From contig NZ_CP044230.1 in NCBI RefSeq assembly GCF_008727815.1, positions 604,001 through 668,000 of the forward strand: a stretch of DNA of 64,000 bases, in the 5' to 3' direction. This stretch comes from Streptococcus sp. LPB0220 (GTDB lineage: Bacteria; Bacillota; Bacilli; Lactobacillales; Streptococcaceae). Within the stretch, counting starts at the first letter, position 1. The number at the start of each line of letters is the position of its first letter. Of this stretch, positions 44,989-59,132 are shown piece after piece. A program made the translations under genes and the position numbers. The notes under the pieces are model-generated. The model did no database searches and was not told where the DNA came from. It saw only the letters and a list, made by a program, of their open reading frames with translations.

Positions 44989-45019
44989 AAAAAACGAACC
45001 AGACCAGGTTCGTTTTTTT
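44989..45019 (+). terminator. Terminator after the glycosylase gene
   Basis: AAAACGAACC (44991-45000), loop AGACCA, GGTTCG (45007-45012), then seven T. It separates the repair pair from hsdR. Confidence 0.9.
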
Positions 45020-45113
45020 GCGCCAAATCCCAACAAAATGCTTTGAAAGCGTTAATTTCTTTCCCAAACATGCTATAATAATAGGAGATTATGCACAGGA
45101 AAAGGATAGACGG

Positions 45114-48107
45114 ATGAAGGCAGTAGCAACTCCAGAACTTGAGATTGAAAGACAGTTGATCCAGCAGTTGACATCAGGAGAGAGTCAGTGGACTTATCGC
45201 GAGGATCTCAAGAACGAAGACCAGTTATGGGACAATTTCTTTGACAAGCTCGCGCAAAATAATGTCGCCGTGCTGGCGGACCATCCCTTGACCGACCAAG
45301 AAAAGCGCCAGATCAAGAACCAGCTCAACTTTGTCAGCTATTATGAAGCGGCCAAGTGGCTTGCTGGTGAAAATGGAATCGCCAAAGTAGAGGTCCAGCG
45401 AGAAGATGCCAGTCTAGGGACCATCCGTTTAGCGGTCATCTGGCGAGACAATATCGCAGCTGGTAAGTCGAGCTATGAAGTGGTTAACCAAGTCGAACGC
45501 GACAAGGCCTATCCGCTAGACCAGGATCGACGGCTCGATACGACCCTTCTGATCAATGGCCTGCCCCTCATCCATATCGAACTCAAGAGTCCCCGAGTGG
45601 CCTTTCTAGATGCCTTTCATCAGATCAAAAAGTACGACCGTGAAGGCAAGTTTCGGGGCATATACTCCAGCTTGCAGATGTTTGTCGTGACCAATAAAAT
45701 CGACACTCGCTACATCGCTGCAGCCCGTGAAAGCAAGCTAAACAAGCAATTCCTGACCAAGTGGGTGGACAAGGACAACCAACCCATGATCGATCTCAAT
45801 AGCTTTGCTCATGAGGTCCTCTCCATCCCCCGGGCCCACCAGATGGTCATGCAGTACTCGGTCATCGACGACAGTAAGAAGGCCCTCATCCTCCTGCGTC
45901 CCTACCAGATCCATGCCATCGAGGCTGTGCAGGAAGCCTCTCGTCGTCAAGAGTCGGGCTATATCTGGCACACGACCGGATCAGGCAAGACCCTGACCTC
46001 TTACAAGGTAGCTCGCAATCTCTTGCAGATCCCAGCCATTCAAAAGACCATCTTTGTCGTCGACCGCAGAGACCTGGACCAGCAGACGACTTCGTCCTTC
46101 CTCTCTTATGCGGCCAATGATGTCATCGACATCGACGAGACGGACAATACCCATGAGCTGGTCAAGCGCCTAGGGGGCAATGACAAGCGCGTGGTGGTCA
46201 CGACCATCCAGAAAATCACCACCATGATGCGCAAGTTTGAAGAAGGGAAGTACCAGCGGGATGCTGGGAAGATAAAGGACCTGCGCGTGGCCTTTGTCGT
46301 GGATGAGTGCCATCGGGCGGTTACGCCACAGACGCAAAAGGAGATCAAGGCCTACTTCAAGAACTCTCTCTGGTACGGCTTTACAGGAACTCCGATCTTT
46401 AAGGAAAACAAACGCAAACAAGTGGGAGACCTGGCTCAGACCACCCACCAACAGTATGGCGATCGCCTACATGAATACACTGTCAAGGAAGCCATCCATG
46501 ATGGAGCGGTTCTGGGCTTTAAGGTAGACTACCGCAATACCATCATCTCAGATCTGCTAGAAGAAGAAATTCCAGACCAGGCCTATGAGGACAAGGAGCA
46601 CATGCTAGAGGTCCTAGATGCCATCCTCAATAAGAGCCGGCAACAGCTCAATATCCCAAAAGGGGTCGGAAAGAGCTATGAGGCTATCTTGACGGTCAAG
46701 TCCATCCCACTAGCACAGGCCTATTACAATCTGCTTAAGAGCATTCTCGCTGGCAAGGAACGGGTCAAAGTTTCCAAGCGGGTTAAACGCCATTTACCAG
46801 ATTTTCCAAAATTTACCATCACCTACTCAGTATCTGAAAATGAGGAAGAGTCCATCGGCTACCAAGACCACATGAAGCGGGTCATGGAGGACTACAACCA
46901 AGAGTTTAGTACGCATTTTAGCCTAGCGGATCTGCGGGGCTTTAATAGCGATGTCAACAATCGCCTAGCCAGAAAGCAGGACAAGTACCTCTACCGCAAT
47001 GAGCAGTTGGATCTGGTCATCGTGGTCGACCGTCTCTTGACAGGCTTTGATGCACCTTGTCTTTCTACGCTTTTTATCGATCGCAAGCCCATGCGCCCAC
47101 AGGACTTGATCCAGGCCTTCAGCCGGACCAATCGGATCTTTGATGACAAGAAGCACTTCGGCCATATCATCACCTTCCAGCGCCCTCAAGCCTTTAAGGA
47201 AGCCGTCGACAATGCCCTCAAGCTCTACTCCAATGGAGGAGAAAATGAGGTCTTAGCACCAAGCTGGGAAGAAGAGAAGCGCAACTTCCTAAAAGCCTGG
47301 GCAGAGTTTAAAGGGCAAGTCACAGACTTGGAAGAAGAGGGAGTCGTCCTCGAGCAGGCCCCAACAGCGCAGCTCCGTAAGGTCGCCAAAGCCTATCAGG
47401 TCTTTGACAAGTACCAAGCCTCGATCCGCGTCTACTCAGAGTATGATAAGGAAGAGATCTACCGCGAAACAGGCCTTAGCGACAGCCAGCTCGAAGCCTA
47501 TCTAGGCCTCTATCAAAATATCCTGGCGGAGATCAAGAGCAGGGATCCAGAAGTGGACAGCGAAGACGAGCTAGATATCCATTATGAGCTGGAGTCTGTC
47601 CAAGTCGATGAGATCAACTATGCCTATATCCTCATGCTGATCCAGAGTATGATCCAGCAGGAGGAGAATGACGAGCAGACCCTGAGTGACAAGGATATCG
47701 CAACTGTAGATAGCTATATCGAGAGCTTGAACCGAACTAATCCAAGCCTAGCGGAGATCATCCAAAACCTCTGGACCCAAGTCCAAGAAGAACCCGAACG
47801 CTACCGAGGACAATCCATCACCGGAGTTTTGGACCAGATGATCGAATCCATCATCGATAGCCATATCGTAAGCTTCGCCAAAAAGTGGTATATCGGAGCC
47901 GACGAACTGCGCTACTATATCCAACACTACCGCAAAGGTGCCAAAAAACAAGCCGGCGAAAGCCAGCTAACCAAGAGCCAACGCTACAAAGACTACAAGG
48001 TAGAAGTAGCAGATGCCCTCAACCCACTCAGCTACAAAAAACAAATCAAAGAAGCCTATACCCAACTGATAGAAGAGGTGATTGAACCGCTGAGAGTGGG
48101 GAGGTAG
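45114..48107 (+). CDS. hsdR: Type I restriction enzyme R subunit
   Basis: 997 residues. The N-terminal nuclease domain has the D...ExK pattern ([10 protein letters not shown] then HIELKSP). Superfamily 2 motor motifs follow: HTTGSGKT at about 286-293, DECH in [13 protein letters not shown], and a helicase C domain ([17 protein letters not shown]). It translocates and cuts unmodified DNA together with HsdS and HsdM. A TATAAT with extended TG (45071-45079) is the likely promoter, and AAAGGATAGACGG precedes the ATG. Composition is clearly richer in GC than the following three genes. Confidence 0.95.
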
Positions 48108-48126
48108 GAGAAAGGAGAGATGAATA

Positions 48127-49197
48127 GTGCAGGAATTTAATGTTGAACAATTTAAAAGAAATGTTCTTACTAAAAATTTGAATATTTTAATTGGTTCTGG
48201 AGTATCATATCCAGCAATTCCTTTAATGAGCTACTTTACTAAAGATGAGAATGGTATAAGTGTCTCTAAAGATATAGCGAATAAAAATTTAGAAAAACAT
48301 ATATTGGATGTTAGTTCTTTTTTACCTTTTAATCATAATGATAGAATCAAGTATTTTGTTGAAAAAATGGATAAACAGATTTTGTATTCTGCGAAATATT
48401 TTATTAAACTAAAGAATTATACTGCTTTTGAAATTAGTATTGATTTTGTATTAGAACGATATGTAAGGTTCTTAGAAAAAGTAATTACATTGCTTTACAT
48501 TTCAAATTCCCGAACGGTTTCGAAGAGTGTTAATATTTTTACCACAAATTATGATTTATTTATTGAAAGAGCCTTGGATTTATTAATGAAAAACGATAAC
48601 TTCATATTTAATGATGGTTCCAATGGTTATTTCTATAAAGTGTTAGATAGTTCTAATTATAATAAAAGTGTGGCGTATAGAGGATTAAATGAAAATTATT
48701 TAAATGAGCTTCCTTCAATTTCTTTAATTAAGCCTCACGGGTCTATGAATTGGGAAAAAGGAGAAAATAATCAGATTTTAATAAGACCGTATACTGTCGA
48801 TCAACCAGTAGTTGTTAGGCCTACTGGACTTGAAGGACAGGAAACATATCTTAACAATCATTTTCATGATATGTTAAGAGTATTTCAACTAGAGTTAGAT
48901 AAACCTCAATCAGTATTAATTGTTGTAGGATTCTCGTTTCAAGATGATCATATTGCAAAGATGGTAAGAAGGTCCTTAAAGAATCCAGAATTAATGACTT
49001 ATATATTTTGTTATTCAGATAGCGATTATGAGGTTATTAAGAAGAATTTATCTCTTGATAATATTCCTAGGAATCTTCAGATAGTGATACCATCTGCTTT
49101 AGAATCTGAAAATAAGAACATTTTGAATATAAGTGGAAATTTTGACATTAGTAGTTTGACAGAGTTATTTATCATCGAGGATGAAGAAGTAAAATGA
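48127..49197 (+). CDS. SIR2-domain defence protein
   Basis: 356 residues. SIR2 motifs are in order: GSGVS at about 23-27, TTNYD at 139-143, the PHGS His at 204 and GFSFQDDH at 268-275. In defence systems this domain hydrolyses NAD to stop phage growth. It starts with GTG after AAGGAGAGATGAATA, 19 bp after hsdR. Its stop overlaps the herA ATG (ATGA). The gene is far more AT-rich than hsdR and uses different codons, suggesting separate acquisition. Confidence 0.85.
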   Translation: MQEFNVEQFKRNVLTKNLNILIGSGVSYPAIPLMSYFTKDENGISVSKDIANKNLEKHILDVSSFLPFNHNDRIKYFVEKMDKQILYSAKYFIKLKNYTAFEISIDFVLERYVRFLEKVITLLYISNSRTVSKSVNIFTTNYDLFIERALDLLMKNDNFIFNDGSNGYFYKVLDSSNYNKSVAYRGLNENYLNELPSISLIKPHGSMNWEKGENNQILIRPYTVDQPVVVRPTGLEGQETYLNNHFHDMLRVFQLELDKPQSVLIVVGFSFQDDHIAKMVRRSLKNPELMTYIFCYSDSDYEVIKKNLSLDNIPRNLQIVIPSALESENKNILNISGNFDISSLTELFIIEDEEVK

Positions 49198-51038
49198 ATC
49201 GTGATGTGAAAAAATTAGGTGTAATCGTAGGGGTTGACGGTGATATTTCTCAAGTTGGAATGTATCAACTATCTAATGATGCGGAGTATTTATGGTATGG
49301 TGATGTGTTACAAGGAGCAAAAATCGGAGCATATTTGACAATTTTACAAAATAATGTAAAAATTATTGCTTCTGTTGTTACTGAAAAAGTTGCTGATCAA
49401 CAAAATACAATTAGAAGTACAGAATTTGATAATCGTTTTTCAAAGAATTCAATAAATCGAATTGTTCATTTAAAAACAAAAGGTGTTATTGAAAATGGTG
49501 AATTCAAAGTAACAAGTCAATATGTACCTATGATTGGTAATGAGGTTTGTATTACTTCAAAGCAAGACTTAGAATTAATATATGGGATTAATGAATTTGA
49601 GCCAACAATTTCTATAGGGAAAACAATCTTAGAAGGTCAAGTTGTTCCATTATCAATTAATAAAATTTTTGCTTCTCATATTGGTGTTTTTGGAAATACT
49701 GGTAGTGGTAAGTCTAATACATTACATAAATTATTTTTAGAATTATTTCGGTCAGACTATCGAGAAAAAATTTTAGAGCATTCAAAATTCTATGTTATTG
49801 ATTTTAATGGTGAATATACAAAAGATAATAGCTTTGGTGTAACCAATCAAAAAAGAGTATTTGAAATTAATACTAAAAATCAAACAACAACCAAACTCCC
49901 GATAACCTCAGAATATTTATTTGATCCAGATATTTTGTCAATTCTATTCGGAGCAACTTCGGCCACACAAGTTCCTTTTTTAAGAAAATCTCTTAAAATT
50001 TGGAATGAAAGACAGTTTAATGGTGAGAGTATTGCACGTTTTGTAGTAGGAACCTTGAAAAGGATTTTAACTACTGGGAATTCTGCAAGTCTAGATTCTA
50101 AAGATAATTGGATATCTATTTCAGAGAAGTACATTGATAATGATTTATTTAATGTCTTAAAAAGTAATTTGTATTATAACTACAATAGAGAATCTTATTA
50201 TACAGTAGTTAATGGTGTCAATAAATATATTATTAATCCTAATACGCCAATTCCTGATTATGAATTAAAGTATCTTAAAATTGATGAAATAGAGGAAGCT
50301 TTAAAAGAGAAATTTAACCAATTATCAGATTTTGAGAAATTAAAATTTCATTTTGATTTTCAGAAAGTACACCAATCAGCTTGGAAGTCAACAAACATTG
50401 AACATATTAATCCTTTGTTTCACAGGATTGATACAGCCTTAAACAGTTTGAAAAAAGTTGTTGAAGTTAAAGAGAGTATAGAAGATGATTTTTCTAGTCT
50501 AAATATCATTAACCTCGTACATGCTAATCAAGAGATTACTAGATTGATTCCTATGCTTATATCTAAGATGATCTATGATCAACAGAAAACGAAGATAGCT
50601 GGAAACGATGTTACATGCACTAGTCATTTAATTATTGATGAAGCTCATAATATTTTGAACGCCCAAAATCATTCTTTAGGAGATACTTGGCAAGACTACA
50701 GATTGAATGTTTTTGAAGAAATAATTAAGGAAGGACGAAAATTTGGTTTCTACTTAACTTTATCTAGTCAACGACCAGCAGATATTTCACCTACTATTCT
50801 TTCGCAAGTACATAATTATTTCATCCACAGATTGGTTAATGATAATGATTTACGAATGTTGGTAAATACTATGCCTACGTTAGATAAAACTTCATTTAAT
50901 AAAATTCCTAGTTTAGGTAAAGGAGAAGTTATAATTACTGGTAATGCTATTCAAGTTCCAGTATTTGTAAAGGTAGAGAAAGAAAAAATAATTAGACCGA
51001 ATAGTGATGATGTTATTTTGACAGAATTGTGGAGCTAA
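49194..51038 (+). CDS. herA: HerA-type hexameric ATPase/translocase
   Basis: 614 residues. An N-terminal beta-rich region (HAS-barrel-like, to about 130) precedes the ATPase core: Walker A GNTGSGKS at 167-174, Walker B LIIDEAHNIL around 483, and the late SSQRPADISPTILSQ segment typical of HerA/FtsK-like motors. SIR2 and HerA are known to form a joint anti-phage assembly. Coupled to sir2 by a 4-bp overlap; the nuclease gene starts 3 bp after its stop. Confidence 0.88.
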   Translation: MNRDVKKLGVIVGVDGDISQVGMYQLSNDAEYLWYGDVLQGAKIGAYLTILQNNVKIIASVVTEKVADQQNTIRSTEFDNRFSKNSINRIVHLKTKGVIENGEFKVTSQYVPMIGNEVCITSKQDLELIYGINEFEPTISIGKTILEGQVVPLSINKIFASHIGVFGNTGSGKSNTLHKLFLELFRSDYREKILEHSKFYVIDFNGEYTKDNSFGVTNQKRVFEINTKNQTTTKLPITSEYLFDPDILSILFGATSATQVPFLRKSLKIWNERQFNGESIARFVVGTLKRILTTGNSASLDSKDNWISISEKYIDNDLFNVLKSNLYYNYNRESYYTVVNGVNKYIINPNTPIPDYELKYLKIDEIEEALKEKFNQLSDFEKLKFHFDFQKVHQSAWKSTNIEHINPLFHRIDTALNSLKKVVEVKESIEDDFSSLNIINLVHANQEITRLIPMLISKMIYDQQKTKIAGNDVTCTSHLIIDEAHNILNAQNHSLGDTWQDYRLNVFEEIIKEGRKFGFYLTLSSQRPADISPTILSQVHNYFIHRLVNDNDLRMLVNTMPTLDKTSFNKIPSLGKGEVIITGNAIQVPVFVKVEKEKIIRPNSDDVILTELWS

Positions 51039-51041
51039 ACT

Positions 51042-51752
51042 ATGGAAAAAGAAGAAATATTCAGATTACTAGGGGTATCAGATGAAACTGAATTGAAAAG
51101 TTTGTTAAATTGTAAATCAGTTGAATATGCTGATGAAATCTCTGAAGAAAACTATTTTATAATTAATCGTGAATCATCTGAGTATGGAATTCCATTGATT
51201 AATTGTAGTGGATTTGAAAATAAAAAACATGAGTTGCTTGAATTACCAACAGATTTCAATGAACGTCCTTATATTTGTGAAGCATTTCTAACTAGAAAAA
51301 GTTTAGATACTTTAGGAAGTAAGAAGAGAAAGAAATTAAAGGACCCTATTAATTGGGAATGTATTACTTCAGATTTATCTGTTAAAAAATATTTCCATAG
51401 AGGACATATAATTGGTCATTCATTATCTAACGAACTTGTTAAAGGAATAAAAAATAAAAATAAAAGAATCTTATTTGTCCAGACGGCATGGAGTAACATG
51501 AATTCTCAAGGTCTTAATACTAAAAGCCAGTTCTATTTTGAAAGTAAACTTGAAGATACTTTAAGAAATGGAACGAATATTTTGTATAAATCAGAATTAA
51601 TTTATAGAATGCCAACTGATAAAATACCTATTGGTATTCAAATTCAAGCTATTTCTACTGATGGAGAACTGTCTATTAATGTTTTTATTCCAAATGTTTC
51701 TCCAGAAATATCAATTGATTATACAGAAGGTAAGATAACGAGGTTAGAATGA
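51042..51752 (+). CDS. DNA/RNA non-specific endonuclease (NUC family), cytoplasmic
   Basis: 236 residues. HRGHIIGH at 119-126 matches the (D/N)RGH core of beta-beta-alpha-metal nucleases, with His122 as general base; QTAWSNMNSQG and YFE (about 147-167) match the metal-binding Asn and Glu region of streptococcal DNA-entry nucleases and streptodornases. Unlike those enzymes there is no signal peptide or membrane anchor, so it acts inside the cell. Base composition matches sir2 and herA. Its stop overlaps the hsdS ATG. Confidence 0.75.
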   Translation: MEKEEIFRLLGVSDETELKSLLNCKSVEYADEISEENYFIINRESSEYGIPLINCSGFENKKHELLELPTDFNERPYICEAFLTRKSLDTLGSKKRKKLKDPINWECITSDLSVKKYFHRGHIIGHSLSNELVKGIKNKNKRILFVQTAWSNMNSQGLNTKSQFYFESKLEDTLRNGTNILYKSELIYRMPTDKIPIGIQIQAISTDGELSINVFIPNVSPEISIDYTEGKITRLE

Positions 51753-52975
51753 AAAAACAAATAAATGTTCCGAGTATTATTTTTTCAAGATTCAATGAAG
51801 ATTCGTCATGGAAATCAAAAAAATTCAAAGAATTATTAGATCCAACGGAGGGAATTAGACGTGGTCCATTTGGTAGTGCTTTAAAAAAAGAATTATTTGT
51901 TCAAAATAGCGAGTATGTAGTCTATGAACAGCAAAATGCGATTTATGATCACTTTAATACTAGATATAGAATCTCAGAAGAAAAGTATCATGAACTAAAG
52001 AAATTTATATTGTTACCTGGTGACTTTATTATGAGTGGTGCTGGTACTATTGGAAAAATTTCACTAGTACCTGAGGGAATTGAGAAAGGTGTGTTTAATC
52101 AAGCTCTAATCAGATTAAGAGTTAATAAAAACACTGATAAGGAATTCTTTTTACAATGGATGAGATCACCAGAAATGCAAAACAAGCTGACAAAAGCTAA
52201 CCCAGCATCAGCAATGGTAAATTTGGTACCGATGTCTGAGGTGAAAGAATGGGATGTTATTGTTCCATCTCTAGATGAACAATTCGCCATCGGCTCCCTT
52301 TTCCGCACTCTCGATGACCTTCTGGCTAGCTACAAGGACAATCTCGCTAACTACCAATCTCTCAAGGCAACCATGCTCTCTAAAATGTTTCCCAAAGCTG
52401 GACAGTCTGTTCCTGAGATTCGTTTGGATGGATTTGAAGGTGAGTGGGAAGAAAAGGAATTTAGTAAACTTGTAAAAAGAGTTACTCAAAGTTCTGACTC
52501 TGATTCATTGCCAAAGGTTGAGTTTGAAGATATTATTTCTGGCCAAGGTCGACTGAATAAAGATATCAGTAATAAATTTGATAATCGTAAAGGTATACAC
52601 TTTAAACCTGGATACACATTATATGGGAAATTACGTCCGTATTTGAATAATTGGCTTTTGCCGAAATTTGAGGGAGTAGCTTTAGGAGATTTTTGGGTAT
52701 TTGATCCAAATGGAAATGATTCAAATTTCATTTATTATTTAGTTCAATCAAATCGCTATCAAAAGGTTGCTAATGATACATCTGGTACAAAAATGCCACG
52801 ATCTGATTGGAAGTCGGTTTCATCTACTATTTTTGCAATTCCACAAAAAGTTGCTGAACAACAAGACATCGGAGCCTATTTCTCTAACCTCGATAACCTC
52901 ATCGCTGCACACCAAGAAAAAATTTCACAGCTAGAAACTCTCAAAAAGAAACTCTTACAAGATATGTTTATCTAA
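51749..52975 (+). CDS. hsdS: Type I restriction enzyme specificity subunit
   Basis: 408 residues: two target-recognition domains (about 20-170 and 235-365) separated by a central helical repeat (LDEQFAIGSLFRTLDDLLAS...) and closed by a matching C-terminal repeat (QQDIGAYFSNLDNLIAA). It sets the DNA sequence recognised by HsdM and HsdR. Both recognition domains are AT-rich while the repeats are GC-richer, the mosaic pattern of domain swapping. The 4-bp overlap with the nuclease gene couples its translation to the upstream module. Confidence 0.93.
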   Translation: MKKQINVPSIIFSRFNEDSSWKSKKFKELLDPTEGIRRGPFGSALKKELFVQNSEYVVYEQQNAIYDHFNTRYRISEEKYHELKKFILLPGDFIMSGAGTIGKISLVPEGIEKGVFNQALIRLRVNKNTDKEFFLQWMRSPEMQNKLTKANPASAMVNLVPMSEVKEWDVIVPSLDEQFAIGSLFRTLDDLLASYKDNLANYQSLKATMLSKMFPKAGQSVPEIRLDGFEGEWEEKEFSKLVKRVTQSSDSDSLPKVEFEDIISGQGRLNKDISNKFDNRKGIHFKPGYTLYGKLRPYLNNWLLPKFEGVALGDFWVFDPNGNDSNFIYYLVQSNRYQKVANDTSGTKMPRSDWKSVSSTIFAIPQKVAEQQDIGAYFSNLDNLIAAHQEKISQLETLKKKLLQDMFI

Positions 52976-53072
52976 ACTTCAAAAATGATCCTTATCTGCA
53001 TCCATGTGCCCATCATTTTTCGAATAGTATAAGTGAGCCCTTTTGATCTTTTCAAAGGGCGCTCCTTAATAT

Positions 53073-53118
53073 TTAATAACTTAAAAGTATTTACTTTTAA
53101 TAACTTTAGAGTTATAAT
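53073..53118 (+). promoter_or_regulatory. Promoter and operator of the toxin-antitoxin pair
   Basis: -10 TATAAT at 53113-53118, -35-like TTTACT at 53090-53095, 17-bp spacer. A 9-bp inverted repeat, TTAAAAGTA (53081-53089) and TACTTTTAA (53092-53100), covers the -35, and TTAATAACTT is repeated directly at 53073-53082 and 53097-53106. This fits autorepression by the antitoxin. Confidence 0.7.
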
Positions 53119-53140
53119 AAATTCGAAAAGAGGTTGCTTT

Positions 53141-53506
53141 GTGCACGCTATTTATTTTTATAAGGACAAACAGGGGAATCAACCGGTCCTGGACTACATG
53201 AGGGAGCTAGCTCGTCGCGATAATAAGGACAGCCGGATCAAACTCAACAAGCTCAACGACTACATCGAACTTTTGAGCCAGCAGGGAACACGTGCTGGCC
53301 AACCCTACATCAAGCATCTAGATGCGGAGATCTGGGAGTTGAGACCCTTGCGGGATCGGATTTTATTCGTGGCTTGGCTGGATGGGAGCTTTGTCTTACT
53401 GCATCATTTTGTCAAAAAGACGCAAAAGACACCTAGACGAGAGATCGAGAAAGCCAAGCGGGAGTTGCAAGATTTGAAGGAAAGAGGGCTAAGAGATGAA
53501 GAATAG
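53141..53506 (+). CDS. HigB/Gp49-like toxin (RelE superfamily)
   Basis: 121 residues. It resembles phage-derived Gp49-like/HigB toxins: [16 protein letters not shown] at the N-terminus and [27 protein letters not shown] in the core (only the pattern matters). Family members are ribosome-dependent mRNA nucleases. The frame is open back to 53033, but AAGAGG precedes the GTG at 53141 and the promoter lies upstream of it. It overlaps the antitoxin gene by 11 bp, toxin first as in higBA. Confidence 0.82.
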
Positions 53507-53789
53507 TGCCATCGGCAGCAATTGGAAAGATGTGAGAGCAGAGCTCTTCACCAAGGAAGAAATCCTGGAAAGTGATCTGCGGGTCGCGATTATGACAGAG
53601 CTGATCGAGGCTCGGCATGAAAAAGGCATTAGCCAAAAGAAACTAGAAGAACTCAGTGGGGTCAGTCAACCGGTCATCGCTCGGATGGAGACAGGCAAGA
53701 CCAGTCCACAATTGGACACGGTCTTGAAAGTCTTAGCTAGTCTGGGCAAGACCCTCGCCGTCGTCCCACTGGAACAAGAAAAGGTCTAA
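53496..53789 (+). CDS. HigA-like antitoxin, XRE family
   Basis: 97 residues. A helix-turn-helix ([21 protein letters not shown]) fills residues 40-75. It would neutralise the toxin and repress the promoter at 53073-53118. It ends 21 bp before hsdM, with no terminator between, so hsdM can be read from the toxin-antitoxin promoter. Confidence 0.87.
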
Positions 53790-53810: not shown

Positions 53811-55412
53811 ATGGAAACAACACAAACCTCCCAGTCGCTCTACCAAGCCCTGTGGAACTCAGCGGATGTGCTCCGCTCTAAGATGGATGCCAATGACTAC
53901 AAGTCTTACCTTTTGGGGATGATCTTTTACAAGTATCTCTCCGATAAGTTGCTCTTCTTCGTGGCGGAGACCATGGAGGAGGAGACAGAGAGTCTGGATG
54001 AAGCCTTGGCGCTTTACCGATCCTACTATGAGGATCCAGACTCTCAAGAGGACTTGATCTCCGTCATCACTGATGAGCTCAACTATGTCATCAAGCCAGA
54101 CTTGACCTTTACAGCCTTGGTGGATCGGGTCAATGAAGGAACCTTCCAGCTGGAAGATCTGGCTCAGGGCTTCCGAGACATCGAGCAAAGTGACGACCTC
54201 TATGAAAATCTATTTGAGGATATTGATCTCTACTCCAAGAAGCTAGGGGCGACACCTCAAAAGCAAAACCAGCTAGTGGCTGCAGTCATGAAAGAGCTAG
54301 CAGTGCTGGATGTGGCAGGTCATGCGGGTGATATGCTTGGGGATGCTTACGAGTACTTGATTGGTCAGTTTGCGACCGACTCGGGTAAGAAGGCAGGAGA
54401 GTTCTATACGCCTCAACCTGTAGCCAAGCTCATGACCCAGATTGCCTTTTTAGGGCGTGAAGACGAGCAGGGCTTTACCCTCTACGATGCCACCATGGGA
54501 TCGGGCTCCCTCTTGCTCAATGCCAAGAAGTATTCTCACCAGCCTCAAACCGTCCAGTACTTTGGTCAGGAGCTCAATACCTCTACCTATAACCTGGCTC
54601 GGATGAACATGATCCTACACGGGGTTCCGGTGGAAAACCAGTTCTTGCACAATGCCGATACGCTGGACGAAGACTGGCCGACCCAAGAGCCGACCAACTT
54701 TGATGGGGTCCTCATGAACCCACCTTACTCAGCCAAGTGGTCTGCAAGCTCGGGCTTCCTCCAAGATCCTCGTTTCTCCCCATTTGGCAAGCTCGCGCCT
54801 CAATCCAAGGCAGACTTCGCCTTTCTCTTGCACGGTTATTACCACCTCAAGCAGGACAAGGGGGTCATGGCCATCGTCCTTCCTCACGGGGTCCTTTTCC
54901 GAGGTAATGCTGAAGGAACCATTCGCAAGGCCTTGCTGGAAGAAGGGGCTATTGATACCGTGATCGGTCTTCCTGCCAATATCTTCTTCAATACTAGCAT
55001 CCCAACGACAGTCATCATTCTCAAGAAGAACCGCACCAATCGGGACGTTTACTTTATCGATGCTTCTAAGGAATTTGACAAGGGCAAAAACCAGAATATC
55101 ATGACGGATGCCCATATCGAGAAGATCCTCCAGGCCTATAAGAGCAGAGAGGATATGGATAAGTTTGCCCATCTGGCTAGCTTTGAGGAGATCGTCGAGA
55201 ATGACTACAACCTCAATATCCCACGCTATGTGAACACCTTTGAGGAAGAAGAAGTAGAGCCACTGACAGAGATCGTGGCTAAGATTAACCAAACCAATGC
55301 GACGATTGAAACCCAGACAGCTTCTCTTCTAGACATGCTCAGCCAGCTTCATGGAACGACTCCAGAAGCAGATGCCGAACTCAAGAAATTTGTCCAAGAG
55401 TTTAAGGGCTAG
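53811..55412 (+). CDS. hsdM: Type I restriction enzyme M subunit
   Basis: 533 residues: N-terminal HsdM helical domain, then the N6-adenine methyltransferase core. The SAM-binding motif I appears as ATMGSGSLLL and catalytic motif IV as NPPY (GVLMNPPYSAKW). GEFYTPQPVAKLM is the usual lead-in. It methylates the HsdS-defined site to protect host DNA. It is separated from hsdS by the toxin-antitoxin pair and shares the GC-richer composition of hsdR. Confidence 0.95.
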   Translation: METTQTSQSLYQALWNSADVLRSKMDANDYKSYLLGMIFYKYLSDKLLFFVAETMEEETESLDEALALYRSYYEDPDSQEDLISVITDELNYVIKPDLTFTALVDRVNEGTFQLEDLAQGFRDIEQSDDLYENLFEDIDLYSKKLGATPQKQNQLVAAVMKELAVLDVAGHAGDMLGDAYEYLIGQFATDSGKKAGEFYTPQPVAKLMTQIAFLGREDEQGFTLYDATMGSGSLLLNAKKYSHQPQTVQYFGQELNTSTYNLARMNMILHGVPVENQFLHNADTLDEDWPTQEPTNFDGVLMNPPYSAKWSASSGFLQDPRFSPFGKLAPQSKADFAFLLHGYYHLKQDKGVMAIVLPHGVLFRGNAEGTIRKALLEEGAIDTVIGLPANIFFNTSIPTTVIILKKNRTNRDVYFIDASKEFDKGKNQNIMTDAHIEKILQAYKSREDMDKFAHLASFEEIVENDYNLNIPRYVNTFEEEEVEPLTEIVAKINQTNATIETQTASLLDMLSQLHGTTPEADAELKKFVQEFKG

Positions 55413-55527: not shown

Positions 55528-56439
55528 ATGCAAAAGAGACACGCGCATGTATCGCCGACCTTGGACATCATGGCCAAGAAGATTTTTAGTTTACCGGAGG
55601 TGACGGCAGCATTTATTCGAGATATTTTGGAGCTAGATGTGGCAGATGCTCAGATTGTGGAAGGAGGCCAGCCCCACAGCATGGCCTATGAGGAGGATGA
55701 CTTGTTCTCCACTGCGGTGGATGTGAGAGCCAAGCTCCATGACGGGACCGAGGTGATCATCGAGATCCAGATTCGCAAGCAGCAGTATTTCTTGAATCGG
55801 TTCCATTACTATTTGGCCAATCAACTGGTGGAAAATGTGCAAAAATTGCGCCAGCAAGGTCAGACACATAAGATGTACGAGCAGATGGAGCCCGTCTACG
55901 GGATTGCGATTTTGGAGAAGTCGCTCTTACTGGACGAAGAGGCCGCCATCAATAAATACTGGCTGACTAATAGCAGGTCCGGCAAGCAACTCAAGGCTTA
56001 TTATAAGAATGGCAAGCATCAAAATCTTTTGCAGGTTGCCTTTTTAGAGCTAGACAAGTATAATAAAGATGAGAACCTGACAGATGCAGGCAGACAGTGG
56101 CTGGAGTTTTTTGGGAATCTTCCCTTCACAAAAGCTCCCAGTCAGGTCGTCGCCCACGCAGATTCATTACTGGATTCATCTAGCTGGACCAAGGAGGAGA
56201 AGACCATGATAGACGAGCGTATTCGTATTCAAGAAAATTATGATATGACCCTGGAGACGGCTATAGACGAAGCGCGTGAAGAAGGCCTAGTACAAGGTCT
56301 GGAACAAGGTTTAGAAAAAGGCTTGGAACAAGGTCGTAAACAGTTGGTATGCGAGATGGTCTCACGAGGAATGACGCCTGATCTTATATCGGAGATGACG
56401 GGTTTGTCGCTGGAAGAGATTGAGACTCTTCTTTCTTGA
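55528..56439 (+). CDS. Rpn family recombination-promoting nuclease
   Basis: 303 residues, PD-(D/E)xK fold: DLFSTAVDVRAKL, then EVIIEIQIRKQ supplies Asp and E-x-Q residues of the core. The C-terminus carries the imperfect repeat GLEQGLEKGLEQG common in this family. Rpn proteins promote RecA-independent recombination, and some act in phage defence. AAGGAGCAGG precedes the ATG. It lies between the restriction locus and the prophage integrase. Confidence 0.85.
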   Translation: MQKRHAHVSPTLDIMAKKIFSLPEVTAAFIRDILELDVADAQIVEGGQPHSMAYEEDDLFSTAVDVRAKLHDGTEVIIEIQIRKQQYFLNRFHYYLANQLVENVQKLRQQGQTHKMYEQMEPVYGIAILEKSLLLDEEAAINKYWLTNSRSGKQLKAYYKNGKHQNLLQVAFLELDKYNKDENLTDAGRQWLEFFGNLPFTKAPSQVVAHADSLLDSSSWTKEEKTMIDERIRIQENYDMTLETAIDEAREEGLVQGLEQGLEKGLEQGRKQLVCEMVSRGMTPDLISEMTGLSLEEIETLLS

Positions 56440-56445
56440 GTAGTT

Positions 56446-56472
56446 AAAAGAGGCACTGCCTCTTTTCTTTTT
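56446..56472 (+). terminator. rpn terminator
   Basis: AAAAGAGGC (56446-56454), loop ACT, GCCTCTTTT (56458-56466), followed by CTTTTT. Confidence 0.88.
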
Positions 56473-56613
56473 GAAAAAACTTGAAAATTTTCCCATTTTT
56501 TCAATCCGCCTTTCTAGAATTGTGGTAGAATAACGTCAGACCCCTCCAAAGCCCTTGATACCAGCGTATTTCTGGGGTCTATCCGACGAGTGAATACGAT
56601 ATCGAATACGAGG

Positions 56614-57759
56614 CTATACGATCATGTATTCAATAAGTTTATCGATCGCGTCCGTTCGTTGTTCGTCTGCTATATGTGTATAGAGATCAAGCGTGATCTT
56701 TACTGAGCTATGGCCCAAGCGATCAGAAATACTTTTCGGGTCAACTTTTGCTGCAAACAAAAGGCTTGCGTGAGTATGTCGGAGCCCGTGAGGCGTGATT
56801 GCCTTCAGACCGTGATCTTGTATGAACCTTTTAAAATAACGGGTGAAGTTTTGAGTTTGCACCCAATCAGCTGATTCGTTTGTAAAAACGAAATTATCGT
56901 CGCCTTCAAAATGTTTCCCGTTTTTAAAGTAAATCTTAATTTGATCTTTTTTCCACTTCTTCAAAATGGACAGAGTCATGTTATCGATTAAGACTGTCCG
57001 AATACTCGTTTTAGTTTTGGGCGATTGTATAATCTGTTTCCCGTGAATTCGCGCAACGGTTTTCGCGATTGAGATTCGTTTATTTTCAAGATCAATATCC
57101 GACCACTTGAGCGCGAGCGCTTCGCCTTCCCTTAGTCCAGTGTAACTCAATAGATGGACCAACGGCCAAAAGTAAGTCAAAGACGCGTTTTTAGCGAGTT
57201 CAAGAAAATCATTCAATTCTTCCTTGGACAGATAATTGTCACGTTTTGAAACAGGTTTGCTTTTAGGTCTGATAACCTTATCAAAAGGATTTGCCGGGAC
57301 AATATCGATCAAGACAGCGTACTTAAAAATACGCTCAATAACTGACAAATAGTGAGTGTATAGGATATATTTTTCGCTCAATGCTATAACAACTTTTTGA
57401 CAATATGGGACAGAGATCTTTTTGATCTTCATTCCTTCGAAATGGTCCTTGATTAGTTGTTTTAATTTGTTTTCAGTCAGACCAAAAGTGCTTGCTTTGA
57501 CCGTCGTTTTATAACTTTCTAACCATAGATAAGCTATTTCTTCAAACGTTGGATTTTGGAATCCGTCCGATTGATTCGATGGAAGCCCGTTCTCTTCCAC
57601 GTCAAGAAGCAAATTTCTTTCGGCTTGTTTAGCTTCTTTCATGGTCTTAAAGCCCCGGCGCGTGGTTCGCCGTTCTTTTCCAGTTGTGGGATCAATTCCC
57701 AGATAGGTCTGAAATAAGTAACGGATCTCTCCGTGTTTGGTTGTATATTTTTTTATCAT
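56614..57759 (-). CDS. int: Phage tyrosine integrase
   Basis: 381 residues: an N-terminal arm-binding domain (IDPTTGKERRTTRRGFKT), a SAM-like core-binding domain, and the catalytic domain with Arg in TGLREGEALAL, HGLRHTH (His-x2-Arg), LGHSS and the Tyr nucleophile in DLYTHI at the C-terminus. It catalyses integration and excision. The gene is at the edge of the element and points outward to the chromosome. Confidence 0.95.
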   Translation of the reverse strand: MIKKYTTKHGEIRYLFQTYLGIDPTTGKERRTTRRGFKTMKEAKQAERNLLLDVEENGLPSNQSDGFQNPTFEEIAYLWLESYKTTVKASTFGLTENKLKQLIKDHFEGMKIKKISVPYCQKVVIALSEKYILYTHYLSVIERIFKYAVLIDIVPANPFDKVIRPKSKPVSKRDNYLSKEELNDFLELAKNASLTYFWPLVHLLSYTGLREGEALALKWSDIDLENKRISIAKTVARIHGKQIIQSPKTKTSIRTVLIDNMTLSILKKWKKDQIKIYFKNGKHFEGDDNFVFTNESADWVQTQNFTRYFKRFIQDHGLKAITPHGLRHTHASLLFAAKVDPKSISDRLGHSSVKITLDLYTHIADEQRTDAIDKLIEYMIV

Positions 57760-57790
57760 GTCTTTCCTCCGTTTTGGCTTGCCCGCACAA

Positions 57791-57864
57791 TTGAAAGAAC
57801 GAAATGATTTTGCTATACTTAACTTATATCATGTTTTCCCCGTGGCTTGCCTCGGGGCTTTTTT
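57791..57864 (+). ncRNA. Possible short transcript between int and next gene
   Basis: On the plus strand a promoter-like pair, TTGAAA (57791-57796), 17 bp, TATACT (57814-57819), is followed 18 bp later by a hairpin CCCCG...CGGGG (57838-57857) with six T. Together they would make a ~40-base transcript antisense to the integrase leader. The same 27-base upstream sequence recurs at 59624, so this may instead be a decayed gene start. Weakly supported. Confidence 0.25.
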
Positions 57865-57866
57865 GT

Positions 57867-58388
57867 TTATTCGAAAAACAGTTTAATATTATCTGCTTGC
57901 GCATTGGTGATCTTGGCTTTAATTGTCTTGACTTCGTTTGTCTCGATATTCCGCAAGTACAATTTAGCAAGTCCGGGCTTTTCTTCTTGAGTGGTGATAG
58001 TGTCCGTGCTCACTTTGCCTTTTCGTTTTCCAGACGCACCGATCACGCCACCTACAATTGTACCGACTGGTCCAAACGCCGAACCGATTCCAGCGCCTAA
58101 AAGGGCGCTCCCTTTTTTCCCTTTCTGTTTGGTTGTCCCGGTCGTTTTTGTGCGCTCTATAATCGTAGAGCCTTCAAATTGAAAATTTTCGAACTCAAAC
58201 AGCTCCGGAGTGTCTGAATAGAATCCAATATAATATAGGCCGTCGATCGTTTTCCGAATTGTTGTCGTTCCGATTGAAATTTTTGTTTCTTGAGCAGCAT
58301 TTTTCCTCATTTCGTTTATCGAAGAAATTCCGTCTACTGTTTTTTCAGTCGCTTTTTTTGCGAAATTCTTAAATTTGTCAAAGTCCAT
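57867..58388 (-). CDS. Phage protein with glycine-zipper segment, unknown
   Basis: 173 residues. A hydrophobic glycine-rich stretch (ALLGAGIGSAFGPVGTIVGGV, about residues 95-115) resembles a glycine zipper that could insert in membranes; the flanks are polar. I do not recognise the family. AAAGGAGAAACGTT precedes the ATG. It is encoded with the ImmA and repressor genes, the usual place for lysogenic conversion or superinfection-exclusion genes; that role is only a guess. Confidence 0.6.
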   Translation of the reverse strand: MDFDKFKNFAKKATEKTVDGISSINEMRKNAAQETKISIGTTTIRKTIDGLYYIGFYSDTPELFEFENFQFEGSTIIERTKTTGTTKQKGKKGSALLGAGIGSAFGPVGTIVGGVIGASGKRKGKVSTDTITTQEEKPGLAKLYLRNIETNEVKTIKAKITNAQADNIKLFFE

Positions 58389-58404
58389 AACGTTTCTCCT
58401 TTTA

Positions 58405-58782
58405 CTATCCCACTAATCGATAGTATTCATCTATTACCATTAATTCATCGGCCGTCGTTTTGAGCTTGTGGCGCTCCATGAAATGTACATAATTAAACTC
58501 GCTCGCGTCCCCGGCTTCTAGCTCTTCCTTTAATAAGGCGTGTATCATGGCCCTATTGGCCTCATTCTCGCACTTGATCGGGTTTATGGTATATTCGGCC
58601 GTCGTGTGCTCTAAATGGCCCAGCTCGTGCAATATGACCCGTTTCTGGGCCTCAATAGTTAGTGATTTATTAACGAAAATGATCTTCATATCAGATAAGA
58701 TCATTCCGGGCCGTGGCCACAGTTCATTGTCAAAGTAAGCGAGCGTGACGCCCGCTTCGTGACAAATATCTTCTAGTCTCAT
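58405..58782 (-). CDS. ImmA/IrrE family metallopeptidase
   Basis: 125 residues with the zinc protease motif HELGHLEH. In ICEBs1 and many phages, ImmA cleaves the neighbouring repressor to induce the element. It overlaps the repressor gene by 4 bp (ATGA on the minus strand), so the two are coupled. Confidence 0.9.
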   Translation of the reverse strand: MRLEDICHEAGVTLAYFDNELWPRPGMILSDMKIIFVNKSLTIEAQKRVILHELGHLEHTTAEYTINPIKCENEANRAMIHALLKEELEAGDASEFNYVHFMERHKLKTTADELMVIDEYYRLVG

Positions 58783-59132
58783 AGTCTTCCTTTTAGATAT
58801 CCTTCAATAATATTTTGTATAGCGACGATATCTTCTTCATTGAGTGGTTTTCCGTCGAAAGTCTTCGCATTTTCGGCCATTTTTCGGAGATCCAAGTCAG
58901 AAAAATCCGGCTCTTTCTTTACGGATTTAACTCCGAGCAAAAATTCCGGGGTTACTCCGAGAGCCGTCGCGAAAGCGTCCGCCCGATTTAATGGAAAAGT
59001 ACGCGTCTTATTAAAATAGCGAGAGATCCCCGACTTTGCCATATTCGTTTTTCTTGCAAGTTCACTCAAAGAAATATTCTTTTCGGCGCTCAATTCCTTT
59101 ATTAATTCTATTATTTCGTCGTTTGTCCTCAT
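58779..59132 (-). CDS. CI-like repressor, XRE family
   Basis: 117 residues: helix-turn-helix in the first 60 residues (ISLSELARKTNMAKSGISRYF). It lacks a peptidase S24 autocleavage domain, consistent with removal by the ImmA protease instead of RecA-driven self-cleavage. Its promoter has an operator between -35 and -10. Confidence 0.9.
   Translation of the reverse strand: MRTNDEIIELIKELSAEKNISLSELARKTNMAKSGISRYFNKTRTFPLNRADAFATALGVTPEFLLGVKSVKKEPDFSDLDLRKMAENAKTFDGKPLNEEDIVAIQNIIEGYLKGRL

Follow-up and report, generated by a model that had tools for sequence, protein, structure and literature searches.

The sir2, herA and nuc genes of Streptococcus sp. LPB0220 lie between hsdR and hsdS of a type I restriction operon, in the 64,000-nucleotide stretch of DNA analysed here (the window; positions 604001-668000 of a single-contig genome of 2,133,380 bp). 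Comparison of loci shows that this operon has the layout hsdR-[slot A]-hsdS-[slot B]-hsdM, and that its two slots hold different genes, largely of defence type to judge from their profile matches, in nearly every Streptococcus genome that carries it. The trio looks like one of many interchangeable inserts rather than a fixed partner of the restriction enzyme. Taken as a whole, the reading that we favour and consider probable is that the trio is the current slot A cargo of a type I operon with exchangeable cargo, SIR2 and HerA forming a defence pair to which Nuc would be an optional added effector.

A related hsdM gene was detected at E <= 1e-250 in 82 of 284 Streptococcus genomes; each of these 82 loci was inspected (67, plus 15 more distant ones). 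The main set consists of 68 loci, i.e. the 67 and L044. In 59 of them hsdR, hsdS and hsdM were all detected; such loci are called complete even though some of the genes are broken or cut. The nine that were dropped are L044, where no hsd gene, hsdM included, was detected, and eight without an upstream hsdR match: six are cut by contig ends (L046, L138, L141, L149, L168 and L193, with L138 also lacking hsdS) and in two hsdR was not found (L165 and L172). Open reading frames (ORFs) were called mechanically. Wherever the three hsd genes were all seen, main and distant loci together, same-strand cargo separated hsdR from hsdS in 70 of 72 cases; the premise of an earlier annotation made from the letters of the window (the sequence-only reading), that type I subunit genes are usually contiguous, is not supported in this operon family. 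Among the 59 complete loci, 57 have same-strand ORFs in slot A and 54 have ORFs in slot B, with median slot lengths of 3,483 and 1,867 bp, respectively. L196 is nearly empty in both slots (14 and 54 bp), and slot A of L187 is 816 bp without an ORF. As for the 15 distant loci, a slot A ORF is present in all 13 with hsdR in view, one of which also has an opposite-strand gene; their slot B often contains nothing. In the 59 complete loci, 229 of 232 slot ORFs with a length of 100 amino acids (aa) or more run in the direction of hsdM (143/146 in A, 86/86 in B), against 318 of 437 for ORFs of these loci that lie outside the hsd core; this co-direction exceeds chance (Fisher p 4e-21, related loci not being independent).

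The content of the slots varies extensively. The 59 loci hold 44 distinct slot A strings and 23 slot B strings, which combine into 55 distinct A/B pairs. The 230 cargo proteins with a length of 120 aa or more fell into 87 clusters at 30% identity and 60% coverage of the shorter protein. Of these clusters, 70 were found in A only, 16 in B only and 1 in both; 47 were singletons, and 39 of the 40 others were restricted to one slot. PADLOC was run on 30 of the 87 cluster representatives (larger clusters first, the last 10 hand-picked) and Pfam on 20. A PADLOC match at E <= 1e-3 was obtained for 20 of the 30, two of these matches being weak. The slot A families are SIR2-HerA sets, GmrSD_C, AAA_13 / PDC-S06, AbiH, AbiP2-type and Drt2 reverse transcriptases, Tmn, IetA with a subtilase, Hachiman HamB, Gabija GajA and DUF4297-HerA. 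The slot B families are PDC-S61 (17 of the 59 loci), PDC-S34 (12), fused AriAB, i.e. PARIS (11), KAP NTPase (11), RelE (6) and KwaA-like (5). At least one family labelled as defence-type, on a broad list that includes GmrSD_C, KAP, DUF4062 and RelE, occurs in 50 of the 59 loci.

The very breadth of this cargo, with its reverse transcriptase, Abi, Hachiman, Gabija, Tmn and IetA-type genes, is what a passive defence island would look like, the slots being safe transcribed landing sites and the cargo being merely swept along with hsdS alleles, with no other working relation to restriction. That the Campylobacter jejuni rlo and mlo ORFs occupy the same two positions (PMC5183652) points in the same direction. 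Against it, cargo families seldom cross slots and AriAB is concentrated in one of them, although exchange through the flanks could yield both patterns. We give the passive island slightly less than an even chance; it is compatible with the exchange part of the reading that we favour.

The gene set and order of the operon in the window, all on one strand, were confirmed as follows (window coordinates).

45018..48107, + strand: hsdR, type I restriction subunit, left border of slot A (Pfam HSDR_N, SWI2_SNF2 and EcoR124_C; PADLOC REase_I, E 1.8e-161)
48127..49197, + strand: sir2, NADase-type SIR2 with a GTG start (PADLOC PDLC04089, E 1.5e-147; Pfam SIR2_2)
49194..51038, + strand: herA, HerA ATPase (PADLOC PDLC04097, E 1.7e-294)
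51042..51752, + strand: nuc, EndA-family relative with an HRGH motif, the putatively interchangeable third gene (profile match to 4qgo)
51749..52975, + strand: hsdS (Pfam Methylase_S; PADLOC Specificity_I), with target recognition domain 1 (TRD1) at about 51749-52250, a central conserved region at about 52262-52470 and TRD2 at about 52480-52850 (from the conservation profile and the breakpoints)
53033..53506, + strand: RelE/Gp49-type toxin-like gene, slot B cargo (Pfam Gp49, E 1.7e-18)
53496..53789, + strand: HigA-type helix-turn-helix (HTH) antitoxin-like gene, slot B cargo (Pfam HTH_3, E 7e-13)
53811..55412, + strand: hsdM, type I methyltransferase, right border of slot B (Pfam N6_Mtase and HsdM_N; NCBIfam hsdM above cut-off)

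From hsdR to hsdM the intergenic gaps are, in order, 19, -4, 3, -4, 57, -11 and 21 bp. The sequence-only reading had correctly placed sir2, herA and nuc, which are + strand open frames, between hsdS and the hsdR that lies directly upstream, and the 4-bp overlap of the nuc stop with the hsdS start does read ATGA; its statement that all these genes overlap or lie within 3 bp is accurate inside the trio and up to hsdS, but not for hsdR and sir2, which are 19 bp apart. It had left out the RelE/Gp49 and HigA-type pair (53033-53789) standing between hsdS and hsdM. Locus G054 has an hsdM 98% identical and a Nuc 99.6% identical to those of the window, and the same genes are present in L057, from S. 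parasanguinis S32.

The limits of what is exchanged were sought by comparing the window with 10 loci, five of which (L137, L139, L140, L142 and L143) were chosen for their near backbone and different cargo. In all five, homology to the window ends at 48107-48116, on the hsdR stop codon, and returns at 52262-52277, in the central conserved region of hsdS. Since the difference runs from one of these points to the other, it takes in TRD1. At the protein level, HsdS residues 181-240 average 67-85% identity and most of both TRDs 10-17%. The proposed mechanism is homologous recombination that exchanges the block between hsdR and the conserved region of hsdS; a single event could then substitute one defence module for another and change half of the restriction specificity with it. 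The association of cargo with TRDs was assessed on 56 of the 59 loci (L150, L153 and L154 were dropped for HsdS length), with labels shuffled inside two hsdM groups in 5000 permutations. Among the 26 pairs of loci with the same slot A string, 10 have TRD1s at least 60% identical, a count that no permutation reached (0/5000; mean 0.71). The corresponding figure for TRD2 is 2 of 26 (748/5000 permutations). By this test, slot A cargo tends to travel with the adjacent TRD1, and not clearly with TRD2. The tie to hsdS proposed in the sequence-only reading, which was one of expression, thus survives in a modified form: it is a genetic linkage to TRD1 and concerns slot A cargo in general, not SIR2-HerA in particular. 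Slot B cargo showed no significant linkage to TRD1 or TRD2; a link between it and TRD2 was tried and rejected, whether judged on the string (3/84 pairs; 2058/5000) or on the hsdS-proximal gene (7/157; 686/5000). If the cargo-TRD1 linkage is right, it predicts that specificity and backup defence could be renewed in one step.

The sequence-only reading took nuc as the component that makes the trio a three-component system. HerA was found at E <= 1e-40 in 11 of the 284 Streptococcus genomes (a search that misses the distant slot A HerA of L150, L159, L169 and L177), and nine of the 11 are 72-100% identical. In these nine close sets the gene after herA is nuc in three (the window, L045 and L049), a 457-aa SIR2-domain gene with ThsA as best PADLOC match (SIR2b) in four (L043, L044, L046 and L047), and, in one (L048), a Schlafen AlbA_2 / PDC-S50 gene at a distance of 135 bp; in the last one, L050, it is unreadable and an hsdS remnant comes next. 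Six of the nine stand between hsdR and hsdS; L046 has hsdS and hsdM, its start being cut by the contig end, and L050 only the hsdS remnant. Nuc is not a constant associate of this SIR2-HerA (three of nine). Across bacteria, the best 80 of 169 confirmed HerA loci were examined. Among these 80, sir2 is directly upstream of herA in 78, and nuc adjoins herA in only one (L057, the same locus as L045). In 17 of them herA is followed within 60 bp by an ORF on its own strand that is 100 aa or longer, and no family is common to more than two of these closely following genes. Type I matches occur anywhere in the examined stretch in 16 of the 80, and SIR2-HerA stands between type I genes in at least four (L057, L076, L111 and L132). 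Both alternatives to nuc also adjoin hsdS in loci without SIR2-HerA: SIR2b in L137, and the Schlafen-type gene in L140 and L168. Because the third gene varies among close sets, and because its alternatives and the relatives of Nuc occur without SIR2-HerA, it is, on comparative grounds, exchangeable.

A dedicated SIR2-HerA-NUC triad, in which the three proteins form one complex or pathway and Nuc is required, was rejected on this variation of the third gene, and we regard it as very unlikely. Its best arguments are the tight spacing and overlaps within the trio, the immediate succession of herA and nuc in all three close SIR2-HerA loci with nuc, and the purifying selection that appears to act on nuc (see below). 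They are outweighed by the SIR2b, Schlafen-type and unreadable genes found at the same place in six of nine close sets, by the single occurrence in 80 loci, by HerA alleles common to nuc and SIR2b sets, and by relatives of Nuc found with other partners.

One oddity was noted at L049 (12367-13878). After nuc, homology to the window runs into the hsdS start (up to window position 51945) and is followed by a 345-aa gene, which gave no Pfam or PADLOC match, and then by a full-length hsdS. This arrangement is possibly a trace of stacked cargo.

Nuc itself is 236 aa long. At E <= 0.01 it was matched by none of the models of Pfam, PADLOC and NCBIfam. Its single sequence matched the solved structures of DNA-entry nucleases (3owv, E 4e-16; 4qgo, E 4e-14), and a 10-sequence profile did so more strongly (4qgo, E 7e-28; 3owv, E 2e-26), the homology spanning the nuclease domain. 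On the basis of these profile matches we assign Nuc to the EndA family. About 200 residues align with the EndA/NucA DRGH nucleases of streptococci. With residue roles taken from Streptococcus agalactiae NucA (PMC4220975), and with a NucA-to-Nuc mapping of our own that was routed through EndA, Nuc retains the predicted general-base His (H122), metal-binding Asn (N152) and Glu (E167). It differs in having HRGH where EndA-type nucleases have DRGH, i.e. a His for the Asp, in having no Asn at the position of NucA Asn190, in showing no obvious N-terminal membrane segment when judged by eye, and in sitting in a defence operon. The HRGH motif is present in 9 of the 10 rows of the Nuc alignment (HKGH in P0020); in the profile alignment Spd1 has NRGH at this position. 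The ratio of nonsynonymous to synonymous substitution rates (dN/dS) of nuc is 0.31 against L049 and 0.05 against L045, the latter on only about six changes, as expected of a gene under purifying selection. An AlphaFold model made from the 10-row alignment was too poor to be used (mean predicted local distance difference test score of 46.8). A homologue of Nuc is recorded in Streptococcus salivarius; plasmid matches amount to 29 records, all below 60% identity, and 9 of the 10 listed are annotated as DNA/RNA non-specific endonuclease. Most likely, Nuc would be a cytoplasmic nuclease of the EndA type that serves as an optional second effector and degrades nucleic acid when the system fires; at the same position other strains place a second SIR2 or a Schlafen-type protein.

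Relatives of Nuc were also seen in other settings. Two of them, 32-35% identical (L053, 8975-9700; L054, 9233-9967), lie 3' of contiguous hsdR-hsdM-hsdS genes, a different type I locus, and a broken copy was found in L056 (10089-10430). The relatives of L053, L054 and L056 come after a 355-aa gene without a name and a 462-aa gene whose product, judged by eye, has hydrophobic stretches. In two other genomes, Nuc-like genes adjoin an 882-aa gene (L055, 8033-8743; L212, 9542-10291), and neither SIR2-HerA nor type I genes were detected in the stretches around these two.

The sir2 and herA genes adjoin and both match PADLOC defence models, as in the SIR2-HerA (Gao19/Nezha) systems. Residues N141 (TTNYD) and H204 (KPHGS) of SIR2 are invariant in eight aligned sequences and align with the Asn and His of the solved SIR2 chains 8yhx and 8w9l, which is consistent with a preserved NADase site; the importance of this Asn and His has been reported, as has the requirement for both proteins and for the NADase site in phage protection by homologues (PMC11559045). 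On the HerA side, the Walker-type motifs GNTGSGKS and IIDEAH are invariant and nearly invariant, respectively, in nine sequences. Plasmid-borne S. thermophilus sir2/herA conferred phage resistance on lactococcal and streptococcal hosts, and the S. thermophilus systems are located between or downstream of restriction/modification genes (PMC11514479). Our pair is thus most likely a Nezha/Gao19-type abortive system, in which HerA would assemble with SIR2 and SIR2 would deplete NAD+ upon phage infection, as established for homologues. It differs from the known systems by its third gene, which varies between relatives, and by a HerA middle that recombines. Phage records examined for SIR2-HerA yielded two with partial HerA matches, one of them annotated as a terminase. 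In slot A of L150, L169 and L177, a second, distant type of SIR2-HerA is preceded by a gene with a GmrSD_C nuclease domain; GmrSD_C is also present in slot A without it.

Codons ~200-400 of herA (window 49800-50700) form a divergent middle between conserved ends. When the window was compared with L045, which has the same cargo, in 300-bp bins from position 45000, identity was 91-100% outside two regions: the HerA middle at 49800-50700 (75-85%) and the surroundings of TRD2 at 52200-53100 (50-85%). Over codons 200-400, the herA DNA of L045, which belongs to a nuc set, shares 98-100% identity with that of L046 and L047, although these two carry SIR2b and not nuc. By this pattern of identity, HerA is a recombination mosaic common to several variants, with a swapped segment of its own that is exchanged much like a TRD. 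If the reading that we favour is right, the segment indicates where SIR2-HerA may read its trigger.

Several points weigh against the reading that we favour. Slot exclusivity could result from common descent. As many as 30 of the 40 TRD1-similar pairs differ in cargo, so that the cargo-TRD1 linkage is partial, and its test controlled relatedness by two hsdM groups only, on pairs that are not independent. Ten of the 30 cluster representatives had no PADLOC match at E <= 1e-3, and the names given to cargo are hidden Markov model matches of representatives, not tested functions. Promoter-like sites number 37 against 26.6 expected (standard deviation 5.2), with 9 terminator-like sites against 10.3; since some of the + strand promoter-like sites fall within sir2 and herA, internal promoters are possible. 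All eight readable third genes look effector-like. A functional link of nuc with SIR2-HerA is possible too, given that nuc directly follows herA in all three cases and seems to be under selection. Conversely, Nuc may have lost its function, given its HRGH motif and the residue at the NucA Asn190 position.

On the exchangeable-cargo reading, the operon would express whichever cargo occupies its slots; restriction would be the first line, and one or two suicide or backup systems the second. That cargo serves as backup when restriction fails, as the sequence-only reading had suggested for the trio, is plausible because PARIS AriAB and AAA_13 (PrrC-type) proteins, which have been described as restriction guards, occupy the same slots. 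AriAB matches at E <= 1e-60 were found in 19 of the 284 genomes, a few being pieces, and in 15 of the 19 they lie within 1 kb upstream of the operon hsdM. The AAA_13 protein was found in 10 of the 284 genomes, inside the operon in five. We take PrrC to be a member of Pfam AAA_13.

These frequencies, and the naming of PrrC and PARIS as guardians of restriction-modification in a review (PMC12707154), would suit a stronger version, in which slot cargo, SIR2-HerA-Nuc included, is held by the type I enzyme or senses it and fires when a phage inhibits that enzyme, like PrrC with EcoprrI or PARIS with Ocr. This guardian model is compatible with the exchangeable-cargo reading, but we hold it to be unlikely for the following reasons. 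Only 16 of the 80 SIR2-HerA loci have a type I gene nearby; the plasmid-borne S. thermophilus sir2/herA protected its hosts (PMC11514479); the embedded TgvAB of Vibrio cholerae is independent of HsdR restriction activity (PMC11411939); and neither the AAA_13 nor the AriAB representative matched a solved structure at E <= 0.01. A still bolder picture, that of a modular immune platform, appears decidedly unlikely to us: one recombination would swap TRD1 and a suicide module, the modules would be guards held or triggered by Hsd and set off by phage anti-restriction proteins, and the HerA middle would be a TRD-like recognition part.

ORFs embedded in hsd loci are already known. In C. jejuni, rlo ORFs stand between hsdR and hsdS and mlo ORFs between hsdS and hsdM, in a region that is hypervariable (PMC5183652), and the window likewise has ORFs in both gaps; the present description differs by its genus-wide scope and by its measurements of cargo families, exclusivity of slots, breakpoints and linkage to TRD1. 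Anti-phage genes inside type I operons, as here, are exemplified by PrrC in EcoprrI (PMC3874165), TgvAB in V. cholerae (PMC11411939) and DarTG2 in enteropathogenic Escherichia coli, where the hsdS-hsdR site is termed a potential recombination hotspot (PMC12255303); PARIS is described in PMC9122126. Each of the first three is the named cargo of a single locus, whereas here many alternatives occupy two slots of one operon family. Searches of PubMed Central, outside which most subscription papers fall, turned up no account of a genus-wide two-slot Streptococcus hsd operon, nor of cargo families that keep to one slot or are linked to TRD1. Within this known kind of arrangement, what looks new is the exchange at two slots across a genus, together with the linkage of cargo to TRD1 and the interchangeability of the third gene. 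The interpretation given in the sequence-only reading is, overall, partly supported. If the exchangeable-cargo reading is right, the occupants of slots A and B, including the families without PADLOC match (10 of 30 representatives), are candidate anti-phage genes and restriction backups.

Two further features of these loci were noted. A DUF6261 gene is present in slot A of 14 of the 59 loci (e.g. L156, 11219-12028), always as the first slot A gene of at least 120 aa, and in the loci that carry it hsdR and the ORF that comes next are 298-408 bp apart. On its hsdM side the operon of the window seems to adjoin an integrated element: at 55528-59132, hsdM is followed by an Rpn-type PDDEXK gene, then by a phage-type integrase in convergent orientation and by genes of the Peptidase_M78 and HTH repressor-like types.

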